Source: Halomonas halmophila (GTDB lineage: Bacteria > Pseudomonadota > Gammaproteobacteria > Pseudomonadales > Halomonadaceae). Taken from it: a stretch of DNA of 64,000 bases. Made by a program: the position numbers and the translations under genes. The notes below the pieces were generated by a model, which did not search any database, was not told the DNA's origin, and worked only from the letters and a program-made list of their open reading frames with translations. The stretch is from contig NZ_BJOC01000013.1 in the NCBI RefSeq assembly GCF_006540005.1, forward strand, positions 1 through 64,000, read 5' to 3'. Shown here piece after piece: positions 43,540 to 54,599 of this stretch. Within the stretch, counting starts at the first letter, position 1; the number at the start of each line of letters is the position of its first letter.

Positions 43540-44727
43540 CTAGTTGACGGCAGCGATTGCCTTCGCCAGATAGGGCAGGTTGTCGTGAGAAAAGCCGGCC
43601 ACATTGGCGCGGCCAGAACGCACCATGTAGATGCTGAATTCGTCACGCAGGCGGTCGACCTGTTCCGGTGTTAGTCCGGTATACGAGAACATGCCCTTCT
43701 GTTCGGCCACATGGGCGTACTTCTCGTCCAGTCCGTAGGGCTTGAGGGCCTCGACGAAATCGCGGCGCAGGCTGTTGATGCGGTCGCGCATTTCAGTGAG
43801 TTCTTCACGCCAGGTGGCGGTGAGTTCCGGCGAGTGCAGGATCTCCGCGACGATCGAGCCGCCATGGGCGGGCGGGTTGGAGTAGTTCTCGCGGGCCACG
43901 ATGGCGACCTGGGAGCGGATGTTTTCCATCTGCTCGTTGTTGCGGGCGACCATGATCAAGCAGCCGGTACGCTCGCAGTAGATGCCGAAGTTCTTGGAAC
44001 AGGAGCTGGTGATGATCACTTCGTCGAGGTTTTCGGCCAGTAGGCGCGGGCCATAGGCGTCTTCGTCGAGCCCCTTGCCGAAGCCCTGGTAGGCGAAGTC
44101 GACCAGGGGCAGCAGCTTGCGTTCCTTGAGGACTTCCAGGACTTGTCCCCATTGATCGCGGGAAAGGTCGAAGCCCGTGGGGTTGTGGCAGCAGGCATGC
44201 AGCAGCACCACATCGCCTTCGGGGATCTGCTTGAGGGCCGCCAGCATGCCGTCGAAATCCAGGCGGTTGTTGCCGTCGACATAAGGGTACTTCTTGAGGG
44301 TCAGGCCGGCGGCCGGAAAGATGCCCAGATGATTGGGCCAGGTGGGGTCACTGACCCAGATGCTGCGGCCCGGCAGTTGAGTGGCGATGAAGTCGGCGGC
44401 CAGGCGCAGGGCGCCGGTACCGCCGGGGGACTGGGTGGCGCTGGCACGACCGGCCTCGAGCACCGGGGAGCCCTCCCCGAGTACCAGCGGCAGGACGGCC
44501 TGGCCATAGCGCGGATCGCCGTGAGAGCCGATGTAGGTCTTGGTCATTTCGTTTTCGAGCAGTTGGGCCTCGGCATCCTTGACCGCGCGCATGACCGGTG
44601 TATTGCCCTTGGCATCACGATACACGCCGACACCGAGGTCGACTTTCTGAGGATTGGTATCCTTCTTGAAGGCCTCGATGAGACCCAGGATGGCGTCCCC
44701 GGGGACCCGCTCTATTTGCTCGAACAT
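43540..44727 (-). CDS. phhC: Aromatic amino acid aminotransferase
   Basis: Class I PLP aminotransferase, 395 aa, of the TyrB/AspC group. PLP lysine in SSCSKNFGIYCERTG; other motifs GVGVYRDAKGNTPVM and ACCHNPTGFD. Last gene of phhA-phhB-aminotransferase, one base after phhB; in Pseudomonas the same operon supplies PhhC, which turns tyrosine into 4-hydroxyphenylpyruvate. Substrate preference for tyrosine is inferred from context; sequence alone also allows an aspartate aminotransferase. Confidence 0.92.
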   Translation of the reverse strand: MFEQIERVPGDAILGLIEAFKKDTNPQKVDLGVGVYRDAKGNTPVMRAVKDAEAQLLENEMTKTYIGSHGDPRYGQAVLPLVLGEGSPVLEAGRASATQSPGGTGALRLAADFIATQLPGRSIWVSDPTWPNHLGIFPAAGLTLKKYPYVDGNNRLDFDGMLAALKQIPEGDVVLLHACCHNPTGFDLSRDQWGQVLEVLKERKLLPLVDFAYQGFGKGLDEDAYGPRLLAENLDEVIITSSCSKNFGIYCERTGCLIMVARNNEQMENIRSQVAIVARENYSNPPAHGGSIVAEILHSPELTATWREELTEMRDRINSLRRDFVEALKPYGLDEKYAHVAEQKGMFSYTGLTPEQVDRLRDEFSIYMVRSGRANVAGFSHDNLPYLAKAIAAVN

Positions 44728-44728
44728 G

Positions 44729-45067
44729 TTACGTCGCTACCTCGTCGGTTCTGGCGGCAAGAATGAAGTCGTTCTTGTGCAGGCCCTTCATTTCGTGGGA
44801 CCACCAGGTCACGGTGACCTTGCCCCACTCGGTCAGCAATGCCGGGTGGTGTCCCGCTTGCTCGGCGATTTCACCCACTTCATTGGTGAAGGCCAGGGCC
44901 TGACGGAAGTTGCGGAACTTGTAGCTCCGCTCCAGTTGCATGATGCCATCGCGTTCGACGATCTGCCACTCGGGGATGTCGCGTCGATAGGACTCGATCT
45001 CGCTGTCGGTGACATGCGGGGCGTCCCAGCTGCAGGCTTCGCACTGTTGTTCTGAGAGGTCGCTCAT
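44729..45067 (-). CDS. phhB: Pterin-4a-carbinolamine dehydratase
   Basis: Regenerates the pterin cofactor used by phenylalanine hydroxylase. 112 aa; the motif [21 protein letters not shown] and GHHPALL are conserved (dehydratase His residues). Start at 45067 has an excellent AAGGAGG upstream; the in-frame ATG at 45130 is in poor context. Middle gene of the phhABC operon. Confidence 0.95.
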
Positions 45068-45142: not shown

Positions 45143-45973
45143 TCAGGCCGTGGTGGGCTCGGCGGAGGCGGGAGTGAAATGCGGGGCGTACAGGCCCAGT
45201 TCCATGGCCTGATGCACCAGGCCCATGATGTCTTCCCGGGCGAGCTGCTCCAGTGTGCCCAGGCCGTCCAGCACATAGTAGAGCGGCTGCAGAATATCGA
45301 TGCGGTAGGGCGTCCGCAGGGCGTCGAGGGCATCGAAGTCGGCATGCAGCGGCGTGTCGGAGAGGGCATGGAGCGTTTCCCGGGGTGACGAGAGGATACC
45401 GCCGCCGTACAGGCGTCGCCCGGCGGGCGTATCGACCAGCCCGAACTCGACGGTCATCCAGTAAAGCCTGGCTAGATAGACGCGCTCCCGGGAGCTGGCC
45501 GCGAGACCCAGTCGTCCATAGGTGGCAGTGAACTCGGCGAAGGCCGGGTTGGTCAGCATCGGGCAATGACCGAAGACTTCATGGAAAATGTCCGGTTCCT
45601 TGAGATACTCCATTTCTTCCGGTGAGCGGATGAAGGTGGCCACCGGAAAGCGCCGCTCGGCTAGCAGCTCGAAGAAGGTGTCGAAGGGAATCAGGGCGGG
45701 TACCGCCGCGGTACGCCAGCCGGTGGTGGCGGTCAGCACGCGATCGATGTCGGCGAGTTGCGGCACACGGTCGCGGGGCAGGGCGAGGCGCTCCAGGCCT
45801 TCCAGGTATTCGCTGCAGGCGCGCGCTTCGACCAGGGGCAACTGGCGGTTCATGAGGCTGCGCCAGGTGGCATTCTCGCGCGATGACCAGTCGATCCGGC
45901 CGTCGTCATTCGGGGAATGAACGCGATACCCTGTCTTGCTGGTGGCAGCATCCGTGGTCGTCTCGGCTTTCAT
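45143..45973 (-). CDS. phhA: Phenylalanine 4-monooxygenase
   Basis: Iron- and pterin-dependent hydroxylase converting phenylalanine to tyrosine. 276 aa, the bacterial catalytic-domain form. Iron ligands: two His in PDIFHEVFGHCPML and Glu in YWMTVEFGLVD. First gene of the operon, divergent from phhR, with a TyrR/PhhR-like box about 104 bases upstream of its start. Confidence 0.97.
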   Translation of the reverse strand: MKAETTTDAATSKTGYRVHSPNDDGRIDWSSRENATWRSLMNRQLPLVEARACSEYLEGLERLALPRDRVPQLADIDRVLTATTGWRTAAVPALIPFDTFFELLAERRFPVATFIRSPEEMEYLKEPDIFHEVFGHCPMLTNPAFAEFTATYGRLGLAASSRERVYLARLYWMTVEFGLVDTPAGRRLYGGGILSSPRETLHALSDTPLHADFDALDALRTPYRIDILQPLYYVLDGLGTLEQLAREDIMGLVHQAMELGLYAPHFTPASAEPTTA

Positions 45974-46076: not shown

Positions 46077-46094
46077 TGTAAAGAATTCGTGACA
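46077..46094. promoter_or_regulatory. TyrR/PhhR-like box between phhA and phhR
   Basis: TGTAAA-GAATTC-GTGACA fits the TyrR box pattern TGTAAA-N6-TTTACA: the left half is exact, the right half matches four of six. It lies ~104 bases before phhA and ~161 before phhR. The same central GAATTC recurs in the box upstream of hpd. The rest of 45974-46254 shows no clear -24/-12 promoter. Confidence 0.6.
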
Positions 46095-46254
46095 TCTGAT
46101 TCTGTCGAGGCCGAGACAGGTCAGGATAAGCGCCATGTGCTGAATTGCCGTGGCGCCGCTGTCACGTTAGGTTGCCAGTTGAGGCATGCCGGCTTGACGA
46201 TGACTGCGCCACTGCCGGCATCGATATCACTGTTCAGCGAGGGAAGAGCCCGGC

Positions 46255-47820
46255 ATGCGCTTGAGATTTCACTGTCAGAATCGTATCGGCATCCTGCGCG
46301 ATATCGTCGCGCACTTTGCCGATTATGGCCTGAACGTGGCGCATGGCGAGGTGGGCGGTGACCATGGCAATGCTATCTACCTGCATGTACCGAACCTGCT
46401 CAATGCCCAGTTCACCACCCTGCGCCCAGAACTGGAGAAGGTCCCCGGGGTGTTCGGGGTGCGCCGGGTGAGTCTGTTGCCCAGCGAGCGACGCCACCTG
46501 GAACTGGATGCGCTACTGTCGTCCCTGAGCGACCCGGTGATGTCCATCGACATGGAAGGTCACCTGGTGGCGGCCAACCGGGCGGCGGGGCAGTTGCTGG
46601 GCGTCCGGGTCGATGAAGTGCCGGGCCTGTCGCTGGATCGCTACCTTCCGGACCTCGACCTGCCGGGCCTGATTCGACGCAACAATGCCCGGGTCAATGG
46701 CTTGCGGCTGCAGCTGCATGACGCCACCTATCTGGCCGATATCGAGCCCCTGCACCGCGAACACCTGGAGGATGTCGCCTCCCTGGCAGGCGCCGTGGTG
46801 ACCCTGCATCGCGCCGACCGCATCGGCGAACGCATCTATCAGGTACAGCGTCAGGCATCACCGGGATTCGAATCGCTGTTTCAGGCCAGCCCCCGGCTCG
46901 AAGTGCTGATGCGCGAAGCACGACGCATGGCGCCGCTGGATGCGCCCTTGTTGATTCAGGGAGAAACCGGCACCGGCAAGGAACTGCTGGCGCGTGCCTG
47001 TCATCTGGCAGGCGCGCGCGGCCAGTCGCCCTTCATGGCACTGAATTGTGCCGGCCTGCCGGAATCCATGGCCGAGACCGAGCTCTTCGGTTATGCGCCG
47101 GGCGCCTTCGAAGGGGCGCGTCCCGAGGGCAAGCTCGGGCTGCTGGAGTTGACCTCGGGCGGCACCATCTTTCTCGACGAGGTCGGCGAAACCAGCCCAC
47201 GCATGCAGGTCAAGCTGTTGCGCTTTCTGCAGGACGGCGGATTCCGCCGCGTGGGCAGTGACGAGGAAACCTATCTGGATGTCCGCATCATCTGCGCCAC
47301 CCAGCAGGACCTGCCGAGCCTGTGCCGTGAAGGGCGCTTTCGCGAGGACCTGTATCACCGTCTGAATGTGCTGACATTGAGCGTGCCCCCCTTGCGTGAC
47401 TGCCTGGACGGCATGGAAACGCTGGCCGAGCAGTGCATCGATCGTGCCGCCAGGCAGATCGGCTGTGCGTTGCCGCACCTGTCGCCGGCGGCGCTGGCCC
47501 GACTGCGTGGCTACCATTGGCCGGGCAATGTGCGCCAGCTGGAAAACGTGCTGTTCCAGGCCGTGTCGCTTTGCGAGGGAGGCGTCATCGAGCCCGAGCA
47601 GTTGCGCATGCCGGATGTGGGCCAGGCAGCGCGCCTTGCCGGCATCGACCTGGATGGCTCGCTGGCCGACATCCTCGGGGAGGTCGAGCGACAGGTTCTG
47701 AATCGTCTCTACCCCGAGAATCCGTCGAGCCGTCAACTGGCCAGGCGCCTCGGGGTCTCGCATACGACCATTGCCAACAAGCTCAAGCGCCATGGCATCG
47801 ATGGCGGGGATTCACCATGA
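46255..47820 (+). CDS. phhR: TyrR/PhhR-type aromatic amino acid regulator
   Basis: 521 aa with the TyrR domain order: N-terminal ACT domain (MRLRFHCQNRIGILRDIV), PAS (~78-190), AAA+ domain with Walker A IQGETGTGKELLA and Walker B GGTIFLDEVGE, and a C-terminal helix-turn-helix (SRQLARRLGVSHTTIANKLKRH). The loop that contacts sigma54 in NtrC-type activators is GAFTGA; here it reads GAFEGA. E. coli TyrR has lost this motif and acts at sigma70 promoters, whereas P. aeruginosa phhA is reported to need RpoN, so the mechanism here is open. Divergent from phhA; its stop overlaps the next start. Confidence 0.94.
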   Translation: MRLRFHCQNRIGILRDIVAHFADYGLNVAHGEVGGDHGNAIYLHVPNLLNAQFTTLRPELEKVPGVFGVRRVSLLPSERRHLELDALLSSLSDPVMSIDMEGHLVAANRAAGQLLGVRVDEVPGLSLDRYLPDLDLPGLIRRNNARVNGLRLQLHDATYLADIEPLHREHLEDVASLAGAVVTLHRADRIGERIYQVQRQASPGFESLFQASPRLEVLMREARRMAPLDAPLLIQGETGTGKELLARACHLAGARGQSPFMALNCAGLPESMAETELFGYAPGAFEGARPEGKLGLLELTSGGTIFLDEVGETSPRMQVKLLRFLQDGGFRRVGSDEETYLDVRIICATQQDLPSLCREGRFREDLYHRLNVLTLSVPPLRDCLDGMETLAEQCIDRAARQIGCALPHLSPAALARLRGYHWPGNVRQLENVLFQAVSLCEGGVIEPEQLRMPDVGQAARLAGIDLDGSLADILGEVERQVLNRLYPENPSSRQLARRLGVSHTTIANKLKRHGIDGGDSP

Positions 47821-48422
47821 AGTATCCTGAGCGGCGTCGCTTGCCGTTGTGGCTGAAGCTCGCCTTCACCCTGTGGATCCTGTTCTGGGCACCTGCGGTC
47901 GCTATCCAGGTGGGGGTCCAGAATTATCTCTGGATGTGCAATCTGGCCAATTTTCTGTTGCTGATAGGGCTGTGGTCGGAGAGCCGCCTGCTGGTCTCCA
48001 TGCAGTGGCTGGCGACGGCCCTTGTGGGCAGCCTCTGGGCGCTGGATGCCGGCACGGCCTGGCTCAGTGGCTGGCATCCGATCGGTGGGACCGAGTACAT
48101 GTTCGATGCCGCCACACCACTGGGTGTCAGGCTGTTATCGCTCTATCACTTGATTCTCCCGCTGGTGGCCGGGGTCGGCATCGCGCGCCTCGGGTATCAG
48201 CCACGGGCCCTGTTCTGGCAGACAGGTGTCACCTGGCTGGCAGTGCCTGCGGCCTATCTGTTGACCGACCCTGTGCGCAACGTCAACTGGGTTCAGGGGC
48301 CCTTCGGGAACGTACAGACCTGGTTCGAACCCGTTGTCTATGTTGGCGTGCTGATGCTGGTCTGGCCGCTGTTGCTGTATCTGCCGGTGCACCTGCTGAC
48401 GACTCGCAAGCTTGCGGGTTAG
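47817..48422 (+). CDS. Multi-TM membrane protein translationally coupled to phhR
   Basis: 201 aa with about six hydrophobic segments, e.g. LAFTLWILFWAPAVAIQ, LANFLLLIGLWSES, LIGLW-flanked and VVYVGVLMLVWPLLLYL. Conserved-looking polar phrases lie between helices: GGTEYMFDAATPLGVRLLSLYH and NVNWVQGPFG. No motif I recognise assigns a function. The ATG overlaps the phhR stop (ATGA), with GGGG eight bases upstream, so it is made together with PhhR. A role in sensing or moving an aromatic compound is only inferred from this coupling. Confidence 0.75.
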   Translation: MKYPERRRLPLWLKLAFTLWILFWAPAVAIQVGVQNYLWMCNLANFLLLIGLWSESRLLVSMQWLATALVGSLWALDAGTAWLSGWHPIGGTEYMFDAATPLGVRLLSLYHLILPLVAGVGIARLGYQPRALFWQTGVTWLAVPAAYLLTDPVRNVNWVQGPFGNVQTWFEPVVYVGVLMLVWPLLLYLPVHLLTTRKLAG

Positions 48423-48428
48423 ACGACG

Positions 48429-49334
48429 TCAGCGGCTGGCGACGACCTGATTGCGTCCTTGATGCTTGGCGGCATAGAGGTTGCTGTCGGCGCGTTCCAG
48501 CAATCTGTTGCGATCCTCCCCGACGCGGTGTTCGGCAATCCCCATGCTGACCGTGATCTTGCCATCCTCCAGCGCGAAGTCATGGGCGGCGATGCGTTCT
48601 CTGAGCCGCTCGGCCAGGTTCTCGGCATTGCCGCGAGCGGTAAGCGGCAGGACCAGAGCGAACTCTTCTCCGCCCAGCCGGCCCAGAAAGTCCTCGCGGC
48701 GCAGCAGGTCACGAATGTAATGGGCGAGATTGATCAGCACGTCATCGCCCTTGAGGTGTCCCCAGCTGTCATTGATGTGCTTGAAATGGTCTAGATCGAG
48801 GATGACCAGCGACAGCGGCAACGCATGTCGATTGCTGAGCGAGATTTCCTCGTCGAGGCGCTGCAGCAGCTTGCGTCGGTTGGCCAGTCCCGTCAGCGAG
48901 TCGGTATCAGAGAGCAAGCGCAGGCGCTCTTCCTCGGCGACCTGTTCACTGATGTCGAGCATGATGCCGTGCCACAAGGTGCCCGACTCGACCTCTTCGG
49001 GCTGTGCGCGCACGGCGATCCAGCGATCATGGCCCTCCCGGGTGCTGAGTCGGAATTTGCCCATCAGCGGTGTCTGCCATCGGGCAGAGCGCTCGATGGA
49101 CGCCATCCAGCGGGGATAATCGGTCTCGTCCAACTGCTCGAAGGCAAGGGACGCGTCTCCGGCCAGCCGCTCCGGCGCCACGCCCAGCAGCCGTCTGCCA
49201 CTACCAACGAGATAGGGGAAATGCATGTGGCCCCCGGGGCTGCGGTGCAGCTGGAAGAGCAGGCCGGGCAGTTGTTCGGCCAGGGTCTTCAGGGGCTGCA
49301 ACGTATGGTCAGGCATGACATCGTCGACCGGCAT
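48429..49334 (-). CDS. PAS-GGDEF diguanylate cyclase
   Basis: 301 aa. N-terminal PAS-like sensor (~1-135, ending with a PAC segment LWHGIMLDISEQ), then a GGDEF domain. The active site is intact as GRLGGEEFALVLP, and the inhibitory I-site RRED lies exactly five residues ahead of it, so product feedback is expected. No membrane segment. ATG at 49334 with AAGGA upstream. Its stop is seven bases from the convergent phhR-linked gene. Confidence 0.92.
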   Translation of the reverse strand: MPVDDVMPDHTLQPLKTLAEQLPGLLFQLHRSPGGHMHFPYLVGSGRRLLGVAPERLAGDASLAFEQLDETDYPRWMASIERSARWQTPLMGKFRLSTREGHDRWIAVRAQPEEVESGTLWHGIMLDISEQVAEEERLRLLSDTDSLTGLANRRKLLQRLDEEISLSNRHALPLSLVILDLDHFKHINDSWGHLKGDDVLINLAHYIRDLLRREDFLGRLGGEEFALVLPLTARGNAENLAERLRERIAAHDFALEDGKITVSMGIAEHRVGEDRNRLLERADSNLYAAKHQGRNQVVASR

Positions 49335-49604
49335 GCGCTCATCCTTTTGTTCCGTCTGCGTTCGAGTTCGTTGTTGGTTATACCCAGGCCAGTTCCTTGT
49401 GCGGGTAGTTATTTATTTAATGCCTGTCATTAGGCGCGACATCATACCTCGGGCCCATGTTCCAGACATCCGGCAAACGTTGTAGGAAATTGACTACAAG
49501 CACGCTGGCTTCGTGGATCGGTCGGCTCTTTCGGTGGCTTCGGGACTGGTCAGGTCGCTCGAATATCGAGCGGGAGCGGGTGGGCTTTCGGAGCGACTCT
49601 TACA

Positions 49605-49859
49605 TCAGATATTAGCAAAGTGTCGTAAATGTCGCGTCAATTCTGTACAGGACCTTGATGACTTGCCTGTCAGGCGACGCGAGTAGACGACCTGCCTCAG
49701 CGGCAGGTCGCGGGCTCGAAAGGCACCGGCATAGACCGAGAGGTAGTAGCGGAACATGTGTCGGGTGCATTCGTTGTAGCGGTCCGCGATTTCAGGCCAG
49801 TGGGTGCCGAAATTGGTCAGCCAGGCCATCAGGGTCTTGTCGTAGTCGGGACCGGGGTT
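49605..49859 (-). pseudogene. Duplicated C-terminal fragment of cfa
   Basis: Remnant of a second cyclopropane-fatty-acid synthase. On the minus strand it reads GPDYDKTLMAWLTNFGTHW... through GAFRARDL to VVYSR, matching the last ~60 codons of the neighbouring cfa, then an unrelated ~20-residue tail (RLTGKSSRS...). It lacks the methyltransferase core, so it cannot be active. It lies directly after the 3' end of cfa, in the same orientation. Confidence 0.85.
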
Positions 49860-50101
49860 ACGTGAGTGCCAATCCTCCCGGCGACTCAGCGGGGCGCATC
49901 ATAGCGGCGATCACGTTGGCGCGAGTAGACGACCTGCCACAGCTGCAGGTCGCGGGCTCGAAAGGCACCGGCACAGACCGAGAGGTAGTAGCGGAACATG
50001 CGTCGGGTGCGTTCGTTGTAGCGGTCCGCGATTTCCGGCCAGTGGGTGTCGAAATTGGTCAGCCAGGCCATCAGGGTCTTGTCGTAGTCAGGACCAAAGT
50101 T
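49679..50101. repeat. Direct repeat of 181 bp spanning the 3' end of cfa
   Basis: 49679-49859 and 49921-50101 are copies of the same ~181 bases, differing at only about a dozen positions, separated by 61 bases that contain the cfa stop codon. The homology begins exactly at the codons for VVYSR and ends near FGPDYDK. The second copy is inside cfa and the first is the pseudogene fragment, so this is a local partial gene duplication. Confidence 0.9.
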
Positions 50102-51037
50102 CTGCCAGTCCTCCATCAGCAGCCTTCTCTCGCTGGCATCGGCGATATGCTTGATCGCCGGCAATACGCCGTTGGGAAATATATAGCGATGAATCCAAGG
50201 GTCGGCACTGATCTCGGAAGTGTTGGAGCCGATGGTGTGCAGGACGAAGAGGCCATCATCGGCCAGCAGTTGCTGCACCGTATCGAAATAGGTCGCATAG
50301 TTGCGGTGCCCGACGTGCTCGAACATGCCGATGGAGACGATGCGATCGAAGGTGCCCTCGAGGTCACGATAATCCTCAAGCAGGATTTCGACCGGCAGCC
50401 CGGCACAACGCCGGCGTGCCAGCTCGGACTGTTCCTGCGAGATGGTAATGCCCGTCACCTCGACGCCATAGTGGCGCGCGGCATGTTCGGCGAAACTGCC
50501 CCAGCCACAGCCGATATCCAGGACCCGCATGCCGGGTTCCAGCTGCAGCTTGCGACAGGCGAGGTCCAGCTTGGCCACTTGAGCCTGGTGCAGGCTATCG
50601 GCATCTTTCCAGTAGCCGCAGGAGTAGCACATGGTGTCATCGAGCATGCGCTCGAAGAGGTCATTGCCCAGATCATAGTGGGCCTTGCCGACAATGTAGG
50701 CCCTGGCGCGACTCTGCAGGTTCATGACGCCTGCCTGAAGGCGGTACTTGAGGCGGTCGGCGCGTGTCTTGGCATGCGCGCCGAGCCCCTGACGCAGCAG
50801 CAGATGGGCCATCTCGTCGATACGATCGCACTCCCACCAGCCATCCATGTAGGACTCACCCAGCCCCAGGGTGCCGTGGCGCAGGACGCGCGAGAAGAAG
50901 CCTGGATGATAGACGCGAAGATCATGGGGCGCGTTACCATTCAGGGTGACACCTGAGCCCTGCAGCAGTTGCTCGACAGTGTGTCGGGCGCGGGTATCGG
51001 GGAGTTCGACGGGGCCAAGTTTTGGCTGGCTGGTCAT
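49886..51037 (-). CDS. cfa: Cyclopropane-fatty-acyl-phospholipid synthase
   Basis: SAM-dependent enzyme that cyclopropanates unsaturated acyl chains in membrane lipids, often as stress protection. 383 aa, close to E. coli Cfa (382 aa). SAM site VLDIGCGWGSFAEHAA; active-site region YSCGYWKDADSLHQAQ; FEHVGHRNYATYF; C-terminal FRYYLSVCAGAFRARDLQLWQVV. Divergent from the thiamine-binding-like gene. Its last 60 codons are duplicated just downstream. Confidence 0.96.
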   Translation of the reverse strand: MTSQPKLGPVELPDTRARHTVEQLLQGSGVTLNGNAPHDLRVYHPGFFSRVLRHGTLGLGESYMDGWWECDRIDEMAHLLLRQGLGAHAKTRADRLKYRLQAGVMNLQSRARAYIVGKAHYDLGNDLFERMLDDTMCYSCGYWKDADSLHQAQVAKLDLACRKLQLEPGMRVLDIGCGWGSFAEHAARHYGVEVTGITISQEQSELARRRCAGLPVEILLEDYRDLEGTFDRIVSIGMFEHVGHRNYATYFDTVQQLLADDGLFVLHTIGSNTSEISADPWIHRYIFPNGVLPAIKHIADASERRLLMEDWQNFGPDYDKTLMAWLTNFDTHWPEIADRYNERTRRMFRYYLSVCAGAFRARDLQLWQVVYSRQRDRRYDAPR

Positions 51038-51206
51038 GAATGTCCTCCTGATCCTTGTAAAGCGACAGGGGGTGTACGGGTCGGGTGACGACGATTACCC
51101 GCGATGAAGGCATGGCCGACCGCGTTACGCTATCAATACGAGCATAGTGCATGCCATGCCTCATCTGTTAGCCCGCTCATCCAAGCCTTGATTCGGAGAT
51201 ACTGGA

Positions 51207-51515
51207 ATGCATGTGATCATTGATATCTGCGTAGTTCCCATTGGCGTCGGCGTGTCGGTGTCACCTCATGTAGCGGCCTGTCAGAAAGTGATTGGCGAGG
51301 CCGGGCTTGAACATCGTCTGCATGCCTACGGTACCAATGTGGAGGGTCCCTGGGATGAGGTCATGGCCGTGGTCAAGCGTTGTCACGAGGTCGTACATGA
51401 CATGGGGGCGCCTCGCATCACGACGACGATGAAGATTAGCACGCGAACAGATCGTGTGCAGCATCTGGATGAAAAGGTCGCAAGTGTGACGGCCCGGACG
51501 CCTGAGCGGGACTGA
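51207..51515 (+). CDS. MTH1187/YkoF family thiamine-binding-like protein
   Basis: 102-aa ferredoxin-fold protein. The start MHVIIDICVVPIGVGVSVSPHVAACQKVI, the segment HRLHAYGTNVEGPWDEVMAVV and the strand PRITTTMKISTRTDR are the family pattern. MTH1187 proteins bind small ligands and several bind thiamine or its pyrimidine part; the ligand here is not proven. No thiamine gene is nearby; neighbours are cfa (divergent) and hpd 300 bp downstream. Confidence 0.85.
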   Translation: MHVIIDICVVPIGVGVSVSPHVAACQKVIGEAGLEHRLHAYGTNVEGPWDEVMAVVKRCHEVVHDMGAPRITTTMKISTRTDRVQHLDEKVASVTARTPERD

Positions 51516-51579
51516 GTGGGGCGGTGGGTTGCATTTCCAGGGCCTGGCCATGGCGTGGCGTCAGGGGGATGTGACGCCT

Positions 51580-51597
51580 TGTAAGGAATTCTTTACG
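51580..51597 (+). promoter_or_regulatory. TyrR/PhhR-like box upstream of hpd
   Basis: TGTAAG-GAATTC-TTTACG matches the TyrR box TGTAAA-N6-TTTACA at ten of twelve positions and is itself nearly symmetrical (TAAGGAATTCTTTA core). It lies ~220 bases before the hpd ATG and shares GAATTC with the phhA-phhR box. Otherwise 51516-51815 shows no clear promoter. Confidence 0.7.
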
Positions 51598-51815
51598 CAT
51601 GGCGGCGCTGAATCGGGCGCTGCGCGGGGCCGTCACGCAGGCCTTACGGCCAGACCCGAAAGGCGGCCTGGTGGGGCGCTCGAAAGCCGGAGTAGACGGC
51701 TGCCAGGGCCGCCCGGATGACTCTAGTCTTGAGGGCATCGAAGGGGGAGGCCAGCGCATTTCACGCGAAGTGCGGGTGGTCTCCTGGAAGGAACTGTCAC
51801 TCTGGAGGAATCATC

Positions 51816-52922
51816 ATGAACGCACCTGCCACCACTCCGCGCACCATCAGCGCCGAGAACCCCATCGGGACCGACGGCTTCGAGTTCGTCGAGTATACCG
51901 CTCCCACTCAGGAAGGCATTGACGCTCTGCGGGCGCTCTTCCTGGCCATGGGCTTCAGTGAGACGCGGCGTCACCGTTCCAAGGCCGTGACACTCTTTCA
52001 GCAGGCGGATATCAATTTCGTGCTCAATGCCGAGCCGAACAGCCATGCGGCGGCCTTTGCCGCCACCCACGGCCCATCCGCCTGTGCCATGGCCTGGCGT
52101 GTGGCCGATGCGCGGCAGGCCATGGAGCAGGCCCAAAGTGCCGGTGCCAGGGCCGTCGAAACCTCGGTCGGACCGGGGGAGGTGGGCATCCCGGCCGTCG
52201 AGGGCATCGGTGGCTCGCTGCTGTATTTCGTCGACCAGAGCCGGGATGATCAGGGGCGCAGCATCTATGACATCGACTTCGAGCCGATACCCGGTGCCGG
52301 TGCCGATGATAATGCGGTTGGCCTCGAGGTACTCGATCACCTGACCCACAATGTCGACCGCGGCCAGATGGACGTCTGGGCGGGCTTCTATACTCGCCTG
52401 GCCAATTTCCGCGAGAATCGTTACTTCGATATCGAAGGCAAGAAGACCGGCCTGCATTCGCGTGCCATGACGGCGCCCTGCGGCAGGATGCACATTCCGA
52501 TCAATGAGTCGGCCGATGACACCTCGCAGATCGCCGAATTCCTGCGCGACTACAACGGCGAGGGCATTCAGCACCTGGCCATGGCCACCAACGATATCTA
52601 TGCCACGGTACGCGCCCTCAAGGCCAACGGCATCAGCTTCATGACCACACCGGCGACCTACTACGAAAAGGTCGATCAGCGCGTGCCCAACCATCAGGAA
52701 GATCTCGAGGCGCTGCGCGAGCTGAACCTGCTGGTCGATGGCGGACCGGACCAGGGAGTGCTGTTGCAGATCTTCACGAATACCGTGATCGGCCCGATCT
52801 TCTTCGAGATCATACAGCGCAAGGGCAACGATGGTTTCGGGGAAGGCAACTTCAAGGCACTGTTCGAGTCCATCGAGGAAGACCAGATTCGCCGCGGTGT
52901 ACTGGGTGCCGATGACGCCTGA
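51816..52922 (+). CDS. hpd: 4-hydroxyphenylpyruvate dioxygenase
   Basis: Fe(II) enzyme turning 4-hydroxyphenylpyruvate into homogentisate. 368 aa, vicinal-oxygen-chelate fold duplicated. Iron ligands: His in VLDHLTHNVDRG, His in GEGIQHLAMATNDI and Glu in GPIFFEIIQRKGNDGFGEGNFKALFESIE, which also contains the conserved C-terminus. ATG at 51816 has CTGGAGGAA ahead. Next step of the pathway after PhhA/PhhC; genes for homogentisate breakdown are absent from the window. Confidence 0.97.
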   Translation: MNAPATTPRTISAENPIGTDGFEFVEYTAPTQEGIDALRALFLAMGFSETRRHRSKAVTLFQQADINFVLNAEPNSHAAAFAATHGPSACAMAWRVADARQAMEQAQSAGARAVETSVGPGEVGIPAVEGIGGSLLYFVDQSRDDQGRSIYDIDFEPIPGAGADDNAVGLEVLDHLTHNVDRGQMDVWAGFYTRLANFRENRYFDIEGKKTGLHSRAMTAPCGRMHIPINESADDTSQIAEFLRDYNGEGIQHLAMATNDIYATVRALKANGISFMTTPATYYEKVDQRVPNHQEDLEALRELNLLVDGGPDQGVLLQIFTNTVIGPIFFEIIQRKGNDGFGEGNFKALFESIEEDQIRRGVLGADDA

Positions 52923-53138: not shown

Positions 53139-54599
53139 ATGACAAAGACTGATCGACCTCGTGCCCAGTGGCTAGGCCGCTGGGGCTTCGTGCTGGCGGC
53201 AACCGGCTCAGCGGCTGGCCTCGGCAATGTCTGGAAATTTCCTTACATGACCGGTGAATACGGTGGTGCGGCCTTCGTGCTGGTCTACCTGGTGTGCATA
53301 CTCTCGGTCGGCGTGCCGGTGATGATGACCGAAATCGCGCTCGGCAGGCGTGGCCGGGGTAGCCCCATCGATGCCATCCGCCGCATGGCCAGCGAGTCGG
53401 GACGCTCCCCGGCCTGGTCGTTGCTGGGCTGGATGGCCATGCTGTGCGGCTTCTTGATTCTCAGCTTCTATGTAGTCGTGGCCGGCTGGTCGTTCGCCTA
53501 TCTGTGGAAGATGCTGAGTGGTGGTCTGGCCGCCTCCAGTGTCGATGATATGGCGGCCATCTTCGCGGCCAACAATGCCAATCCCTGGAGCCTGGGGGCG
53601 TGGAGCAGCCTGGTGACCCTGGCGACCATGCTGATCGTCGGCAAGGGGGTGCAGTCCGGTATCGAAAGGAGTGTCAGCTGGATGATGCCGGGCATGGTCA
53701 TCATGTTGATGATCATGATCGGTTATGGCGCCTTCTCCGGTGGTTTCAGCGAGGCGCTGGCTTTCCTGTTCGCCTTCAATGCCGGCAGCCTGTCCAGTGA
53801 AGGCATGCTGGCGGCCATGGGACACGCCTTCTTCACACTCTCGCTGGCCTCCGGGGCCATCCTGACCTACGGCAGCTATTTGCCACGCGAGGTTTCCATC
53901 GCTCGCACTACCCTGACCGTGGCGGTAGCCGATACCCTGGTGGCCCTGATGGCCGGGTTGGCGATCTTCCCGGTGATCTTCGCCAACGGCATGGAACCCG
54001 GCAGTGGCCCGGGTCTGATTTTCATGAGCCTGCCGCTGGCCTTCCAGGCCATGCCGCTGGGTACCCTGTTCGGTACCCTCTTCTTCGTGATGCTTTCCAT
54101 GGCCGCGCTGACGTCTTCGATCTCGATGGTCGAGGCCACGGTGTCCTGGCTCACCGACAACAAGGGCCTCAGTCGTCGGGCGGCCGCCTGGGGCACGGGG
54201 ATCGTGCTGTGGTTCATCAGTACCCTGGCCATGCTGTCATTCAATGTGGGAGCAGAGTGGACGCTGCTCGGCAAGCACTTCTTTGACTGGCTGGACTTCC
54301 TGACATCGCGCCTGATGATGCCCCTGGGCGGACTCGGCATGGCCTTGATGGCCGGCTTCGTGCTCAGTAGCGAAGCGCTGCGGGAAGAGCTGGGGCTGTC
54401 ACCGCTGGCGCATGGACTCTGGCTGTTCATGGTCCGCTATGTCAGTCCGCTGGGCATATTGGTGATCTTTGTCGATGCCCTGGGCTGGCTCGATATCGAC
54501 TTTGCCGCTCAATGGCCCTGGTTGCTGCTGGCCCTGGCGGTCATGGCGGTAATCGGCGAGTTGACGCGTCCTGGCTTGAGGCGCGCTCTGTCCTGTTGA
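53139..54599 (+). CDS. Sodium-dependent transporter, NSS family
   Basis: 486 aa with about eleven helices; the signature FVLAATGSAAGLGNVWKFPYM and PVMMTEIALGRRGRGSP in the first helices is that of neurotransmitter:sodium symporters (SLC6/LeuT fold), which import amino acids with Na+. The bacterial tyrosine carrier Tyt1 is of this type. Its place 216 bp downstream of hpd suggests an aromatic amino acid substrate, which is inference. No PhhR box is seen in front of it. Confidence 0.9.
   Translation: MTKTDRPRAQWLGRWGFVLAATGSAAGLGNVWKFPYMTGEYGGAAFVLVYLVCILSVGVPVMMTEIALGRRGRGSPIDAIRRMASESGRSPAWSLLGWMAMLCGFLILSFYVVVAGWSFAYLWKMLSGGLAASSVDDMAAIFAANNANPWSLGAWSSLVTLATMLIVGKGVQSGIERSVSWMMPGMVIMLMIMIGYGAFSGGFSEALAFLFAFNAGSLSSEGMLAAMGHAFFTLSLASGAILTYGSYLPREVSIARTTLTVAVADTLVALMAGLAIFPVIFANGMEPGSGPGLIFMSLPLAFQAMPLGTLFGTLFFVMLSMAALTSSISMVEATVSWLTDNKGLSRRAAAWGTGIVLWFISTLAMLSFNVGAEWTLLGKHFFDWLDFLTSRLMMPLGGLGMALMAGFVLSSEALREELGLSPLAHGLWLFMVRYVSPLGILVIFVDALGWLDIDFAAQWPWLLLALAVMAVIGELTRPGLRRALSC

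Follow-up and report, generated by a model that had tools for sequence, protein, structure and literature searches.

Two predicted PhhR operator arrays at the phhA and hpd promoters of Halomonas halmophila

In Halomonas halmophila, two 18-bp boxes with the same GAATTC centre are best read as the strongest members of two arrays of PhhR operators, one in the phhA–phhR gap and one upstream of hpd, which would govern phhABC and hpd; the GAATTC identity would be a coincidence, and hmgA would be controlled otherwise. We place the probability of this reading at roughly 0.85. Positions refer to the window, the whole stretch of 64,000 nucleotides that was analysed, in which the locus genes and the two reported boxes are as follows.

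43540-44727, minus strand: aromatic amino acid transaminase (phhC), NF006719 above cut-off
44729-45067, minus strand: 4a-hydroxytetrahydrobiopterin dehydratase (phhB), NF002016 above cut-off
45143-45973, minus strand: phenylalanine 4-monooxygenase (phhA), TIGR01267 above cut-off
46077-46094, plus strand: predicted PhhR box on the phhA side, TGTAAAGAATTCGTGACA, 10/12 arm matches, full core GTMA-N8-TKAC
46255-47820, plus strand: phhR, TyrR-family regulator, TIGR04381 at 74.9 bits (cut-off 30)
51580-51597, plus strand: predicted PhhR box of hpd, TGTAAGGAATTCTTTACG, 10/12 arm matches, full core
51816-52922, plus strand: 4-hydroxyphenylpyruvate dioxygenase (hpd), TIGR01263 above cut-off

The initial annotation was correct in describing both 18-mers as TyrR-like in their half-sites and alike in their centre. 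The TGTAAAGAATTCGTGACA box occupies the gap between phhA and the divergently transcribed phhR, a gene order conserved in relatives, and the hpd start codon lies 236 bp past the start of the TGTAAGGAATTCTTTACG box. Each matches 10 of the 12 positions of the arm consensus TGTAAA-N6-TTTACA around an identical 6-bp centre. A strong TyrR box is defined, in the accessible text of PMC4374768, by at least 10 of 12 arm matches together with the G-C pair of the arms, and both boxes have these features. Judged from sequence, PhhR, the TyrR-family regulator whose gene lies between the two, very probably uses them as operators.

Two other features of the intervening DNA were recorded. An ORF directly 3' of phhR (47817-48422) has no Pfam or NCBIfam match and is kept at that place in many Halomonas loci. 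A 176-bp direct repeat (49678-49853 and 49920-50095, 95% identical) has its second copy in the 3' part of a cyclopropane fatty acid synthase gene and its first just beyond the end of that gene, like a partial gene duplication.

The reported pair stands out when the whole 18-mer is considered. With up to two mismatches, a degenerate pattern found only the two reported places in the window (four matches over both strands, 0.07 expected), in which the word GAATTC itself occurs 13 times. Across the whole genome (3.25 Mb), the symmetrical 18-mer TGTAAAGAATTCTTTACA has matches with up to three mismatches only at the phhA and hpd promoters, and a reversed control gave none. When the centre was left free and two mismatches were allowed, 26 places were obtained against 13 in the control, so the arms alone fail to single out the pair. 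That enrichment is weak, and two other loose patterns showed none genome-wide, with four places against five in the control and, for the full core, 18 against 25, although three of the four and four of the 18 fall within the hpd and phhA promoters, and the top profile scores among the 18 belong to the reported boxes, which are part of the profile's training set. The weight of the case therefore comes from location and conservation. Regulon members elsewhere in the genome were sought at four of the 14 full-core places outside the two promoters (C22:66524, C18:121313, C3:134927 and C21:140367) and rejected as candidates: by eye, from the ORF lists, we take none of the neighbouring genes to have an aromatic link.

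Conservation was assessed upstream of phhA and hpd in 34 genomes of the genus for each gene. The profile was trained on these same promoters, and our conclusions accordingly rest on counts that use the arms only or the core only. Boxes with at least 9 of 12 arm matches numbered 111 in the 68 upstream regions, compared with a mean of 2.7 in shuffled sequences and none in 400-bp coding stretches; the hpd upstream regions of two genomes (G032 and G034) had no box at this threshold. The core GTMA-N8-TKAC, absent from 62,743 positions of coding sequence, occurs upstream of phhA as three sites at spacings of 22 and 82-84 bp in 32 of the 34 genomes. The other two, H. halmophila and its closest named relative found, Halomonas almeriensis (PhhA 92% identical), have one full core only. 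Upstream of hpd, 28 genomes have two full cores, five have three and one has a single core; the 28 pairs are 72 bp apart in 23 genomes, 21 bp in four and 73 bp in one, and the five triplets, that of H. halmophila included, share spacings of 21 and 51 bp. Outside the genus, the hpd scan covered one stretch (L141) of the 10 with full-length hpd matches.

Four weaker boxes, absent from the initial annotation, lie in register with the reported ones.

46160-46177, plus strand: weaker PhhR box of the phhA array, 83 bp from the 46077 box, 8/12 arm matches, 7/8 core
46182-46199, plus strand: third and weakest box of the phhA array, 22 bp further towards phhR, 6/12 arm matches, 7/8 core
51559-51576, plus strand: weak predicted PhhR box in the hpd array, 6/12 arm matches, full core
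51631-51648, plus strand: predicted PhhR box of intermediate strength in the hpd array, 51 bp from the 51580 box, 7/12 arm matches, full core

Each promoter thus has an array of three boxes, spaced by 22 and 83 bp at phhA and by 21 and 51 bp at hpd. Relatives have a strong box as the counterpart of the 46160 box, and a full core stands at the place of the 46182 box in 32 of the 34 genus genomes. When boxes with equal cores are compared, centre positions 8-11 have an AT fraction of 0.97 and 0.92 in the two strong phhA boxes, against 0.76 at hpd and 0.31 in the weak phhA box. The seven spacing classes examined (21-22, 42, 51, 62, 72, 83 and 96 bp) fall near whole helical turns (Rayleigh p ~0.01; simulation 0.009), the classes having been picked by hand after the data were seen and the later single spacings of 93 and 115 bp left out. 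The natural reading that these spacings suggest is of PhhR dimers cooperating on one face of the DNA.

It is nevertheless conceivable, if rather unlikely, that only the two strong boxes function in H. halmophila and that the four weaker ones are decayed sites or other promoter elements. The 46160 and 46182 boxes have each lost one core base, both here and in H. almeriensis, the low AT fraction given above makes the centre of the third phhA box GC-rich, and in some genomes that box contains TTGAC on the phhR strand, resembling a -35 element. Yet the first T of TTGAC is variable, the third box is conserved on both arms in relatives as the others are, with the exact 22-bp spacing in 32 of 34 genomes, and both weaker hpd boxes retain full cores here. 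As a more specific and tentative form of the array reading, for which we claim somewhat less than even odds, PhhR of Halomonadaceae may activate catabolic promoters as a higher-order complex made up of three dimers and perhaps hexameric, which would occupy three boxes spaced by whole turns along one DNA face; the spacing would have evolved in near-whole-turn steps (42, 51, 62, 72 and 83 bp), and strong sites would be set apart from weak ones by the AT content of their centre. A literature search on TyrR hexamers and helical phasing gave no helpful title among the matches listed.

The identity of the two centres had been taken in the initial annotation as a hint that PhhR reads a fixed GAATTC spacer, and this suggestion did not withstand comparison. 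Base-by-base reading of GAATTC has very little credibility: although the word is common to both reported boxes, and G7 and C12 occur in 94 and 89 of the 111 boxes (both in 73), G and C each making up ~0.29 of the flanks, only three of the 111 contain GAATTC, phhA and hpd promoters have the same centre in two of 33 genomes (H. halmophila and G067), and the H. almeriensis centres differ, with GAATAC (reverse complement GTATTC) at the phhA box and GGTTTC at the hpd box. What survives, at the level of sequence, is a preference milder than a fixed word, for G7, C12 and an AT-rich middle. PhhR probably senses the centre by its shape and by bases 7 and 12, and the GAATTC identity of the reported boxes looks like a coincidence within this looser preference.

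The boxes also track with phhR. In a named set of 80 loci kept from 100 PhhA relatives, whose Halomonadaceae members overlap with the 34 genus genomes, full-core boxes lie upstream of phhA in 72 of 72 loci with phhR and in none of eight without it, where 'without' means no match in the fetched stretch, which reaches 786 to 9,000 bases upstream of phhA. These eight loci come from few lineages, and some stretches are short, so they do not amount to eight independent losses. Among the 53 Halomonadaceae loci, three full cores were found in 45, two in seven and one in one. All 19 of the 22 Pseudomonadaceae loci that have phhR carry boxes exactly 62 bp apart, with both cores full in six pairs and one full core beside one of 7/8 in 13; the three phhR-less Azotobacter loci have no full core. 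Upstream of phhA in Azotobacter chroococcum lies a short phhR-like stretch (L218:163-324), perhaps a remnant of a lost regulator, in a locus that lacks boxes and starts where its contig does. In five distant genomes retrieved by genomic position, the stretch contains no close phhR, and three of them have no full core. The other two break the pattern in part: G045 has a 12/12 box at phhA yet no phhR match in its 6-kb stretch, and its phhR may be encoded elsewhere in the genome, while in G051 an 11/12 box stands next to a TyrR-like protein whose identity is only 32%.

PhhR itself has the domain order ACT (27.4 bits, cut-off 27), PAS_8, Sigma54_activat and HTH_50 (Pfam) and matches the solved TyrR domains 2jhe and 1g2h. 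Its match to the TyrR equivalog model NF008085 is full-length but below cut-off (499 against 576 bits), which makes it a TyrR-family relative rather than TyrR itself. At the position of GAFTGA, 113 locus matches from overlapping genomes read GAFEGA (99), GAFDGA (11) or GAFAGA (1), with no such motif in two; replacement of this sigma-54 contact motif would mean that sigma-54 activity is absent. A related system is GcsR of P. aeruginosa, a TyrR-like protein that binds three sites of 18 bp in which position 7 is G, according to the accessible part of PMC4894688; it differs in being glycine-responsive, working with RpoN and controlling another operon. That the boxes serve some other regulator, for example a TyrR relative resembling GcsR, is highly improbable: the GcsR sites, TGTAACG-N4-CGTTCCG in that part of the source, share G7 and come in threes, but PhhR is the only protein of the genome whose TyrR-type HTH passes the cut-off (one further protein reaches 27.9 of the 30 bits required), and the boxes occupy the gap between phhA and phhR and, across the named set, occur together with phhR.

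The extent of the regulon can be drawn from the same comparisons. Boxes at both promoters across relatives uphold the proposal that phhA and hpd belong together, and phhA(BC) and hpd are very likely members of one PhhR regulon. Control of hpd across 5 kb, the other half of that proposal, is unneeded, since each promoter has its own boxes. Nor does the regulon appear to extend to hmgA, near which the initial annotation had proposed looking for sites: none of 37 hmgA upstream regions from 37 genomes has a box at a profile score of at least 10. The hmgA gene of H. halmophila is found on a different contig, together with genes for fumarylacetoacetase and a GST-family protein. IclR-family and MarR-family genes adjoin the hmgA operon (L148:2589-3896), and one or the other of these neighbours may control it. 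Next to hpd lies a further gene.

53139-54599, plus strand: sodium-dependent transporter after hpd, NF037979 above cut-off

Of 30 genus loci, 29 have a transporter gene following hpd. The transporter in the window, which we take to be COG0733, is possibly co-regulated with hpd and is a candidate for importing aromatic amino acids within the PhhR regulon. A COG0733 transporter is predicted under TyrR in Vibrionales, according to the accessible text of PMC5343134.

Sites for other components of the promoters were also sought. A sigma-70 promoter scan passed no site, and one IHF pattern had no match in either set of 34 upstream regions. Sigma-54 promoters were rejected, the one pattern used being near absent from the 34 upstream regions per gene (0 on the gene strand and 1/34 on the opposite strand, for each gene). 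A conserved CTAGKCT occurs less than 200 bp from hpd in 31 of 34 genus genomes.

51723-51729, plus strand: CTAGTCT, putative -10 element for hpd

CTAGKCT may be the -10 region of hpd, in which case the hpd boxes would be centred or placed some 97, 147 and 168 bp upstream of the start. In the mechanism that we propose, PhhR dimers carrying phenylalanine or tyrosine would bind the strong box, and the weaker phased boxes would be filled on the same DNA face. Bound PhhR would activate sigma-70 transcription of phhABC and hpd, and probably of the adjacent transporter gene, and the regulon would convert Phe via Tyr and 4-hydroxyphenylpyruvate to homogentisate, with the hmgA operon under other control.

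This arrangement resembles the PhhR regulon of P. aeruginosa and P. putida, in which phhR lies in the phhABC locus; the accessible text of PMC5343134 places both phhABC and hpd of P. aeruginosa under PhhR. The Pseudomonadaceae loci with phhR have two boxes upstream of phhA, spaced by 62 bp, whereas most Halomonadaceae loci have 82-84 bp and a third box. The boxes of E. coli and Enterobacter TyrR share the arms TGTAAA-N6-TTTACA and the placing of strong and weak boxes side by side, and TyrR binds such pairs and, in the presence of tyrosine and ATP, assembles into hexamers, according to the accessible text of PMC4374768. In contrast, TyrR there serves largely biosynthesis and transport, whereas the H. 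halmophila boxes would serve catabolism, position 4 is often C and G7/C12 are preferred. Literature searches on PhhR/TyrR in Halomonas and on TyrR box spacers in Pseudomonas listed no title on such an array, part of which the original PhhR papers may already describe.

Taken together, the predicted operators assign the genes for Phe/Tyr catabolism in H. halmophila to a PhhR regulon that is defined and apparently very small, and they single out the transporter that follows hpd as a candidate for the import of aromatic amino acids. The natural promoter variants, with spacings of 62, 83, 51 and 72 bp and strong and weak boxes that swap places, could be used to address whether TyrR-type activators act as dimers or as larger assemblies.
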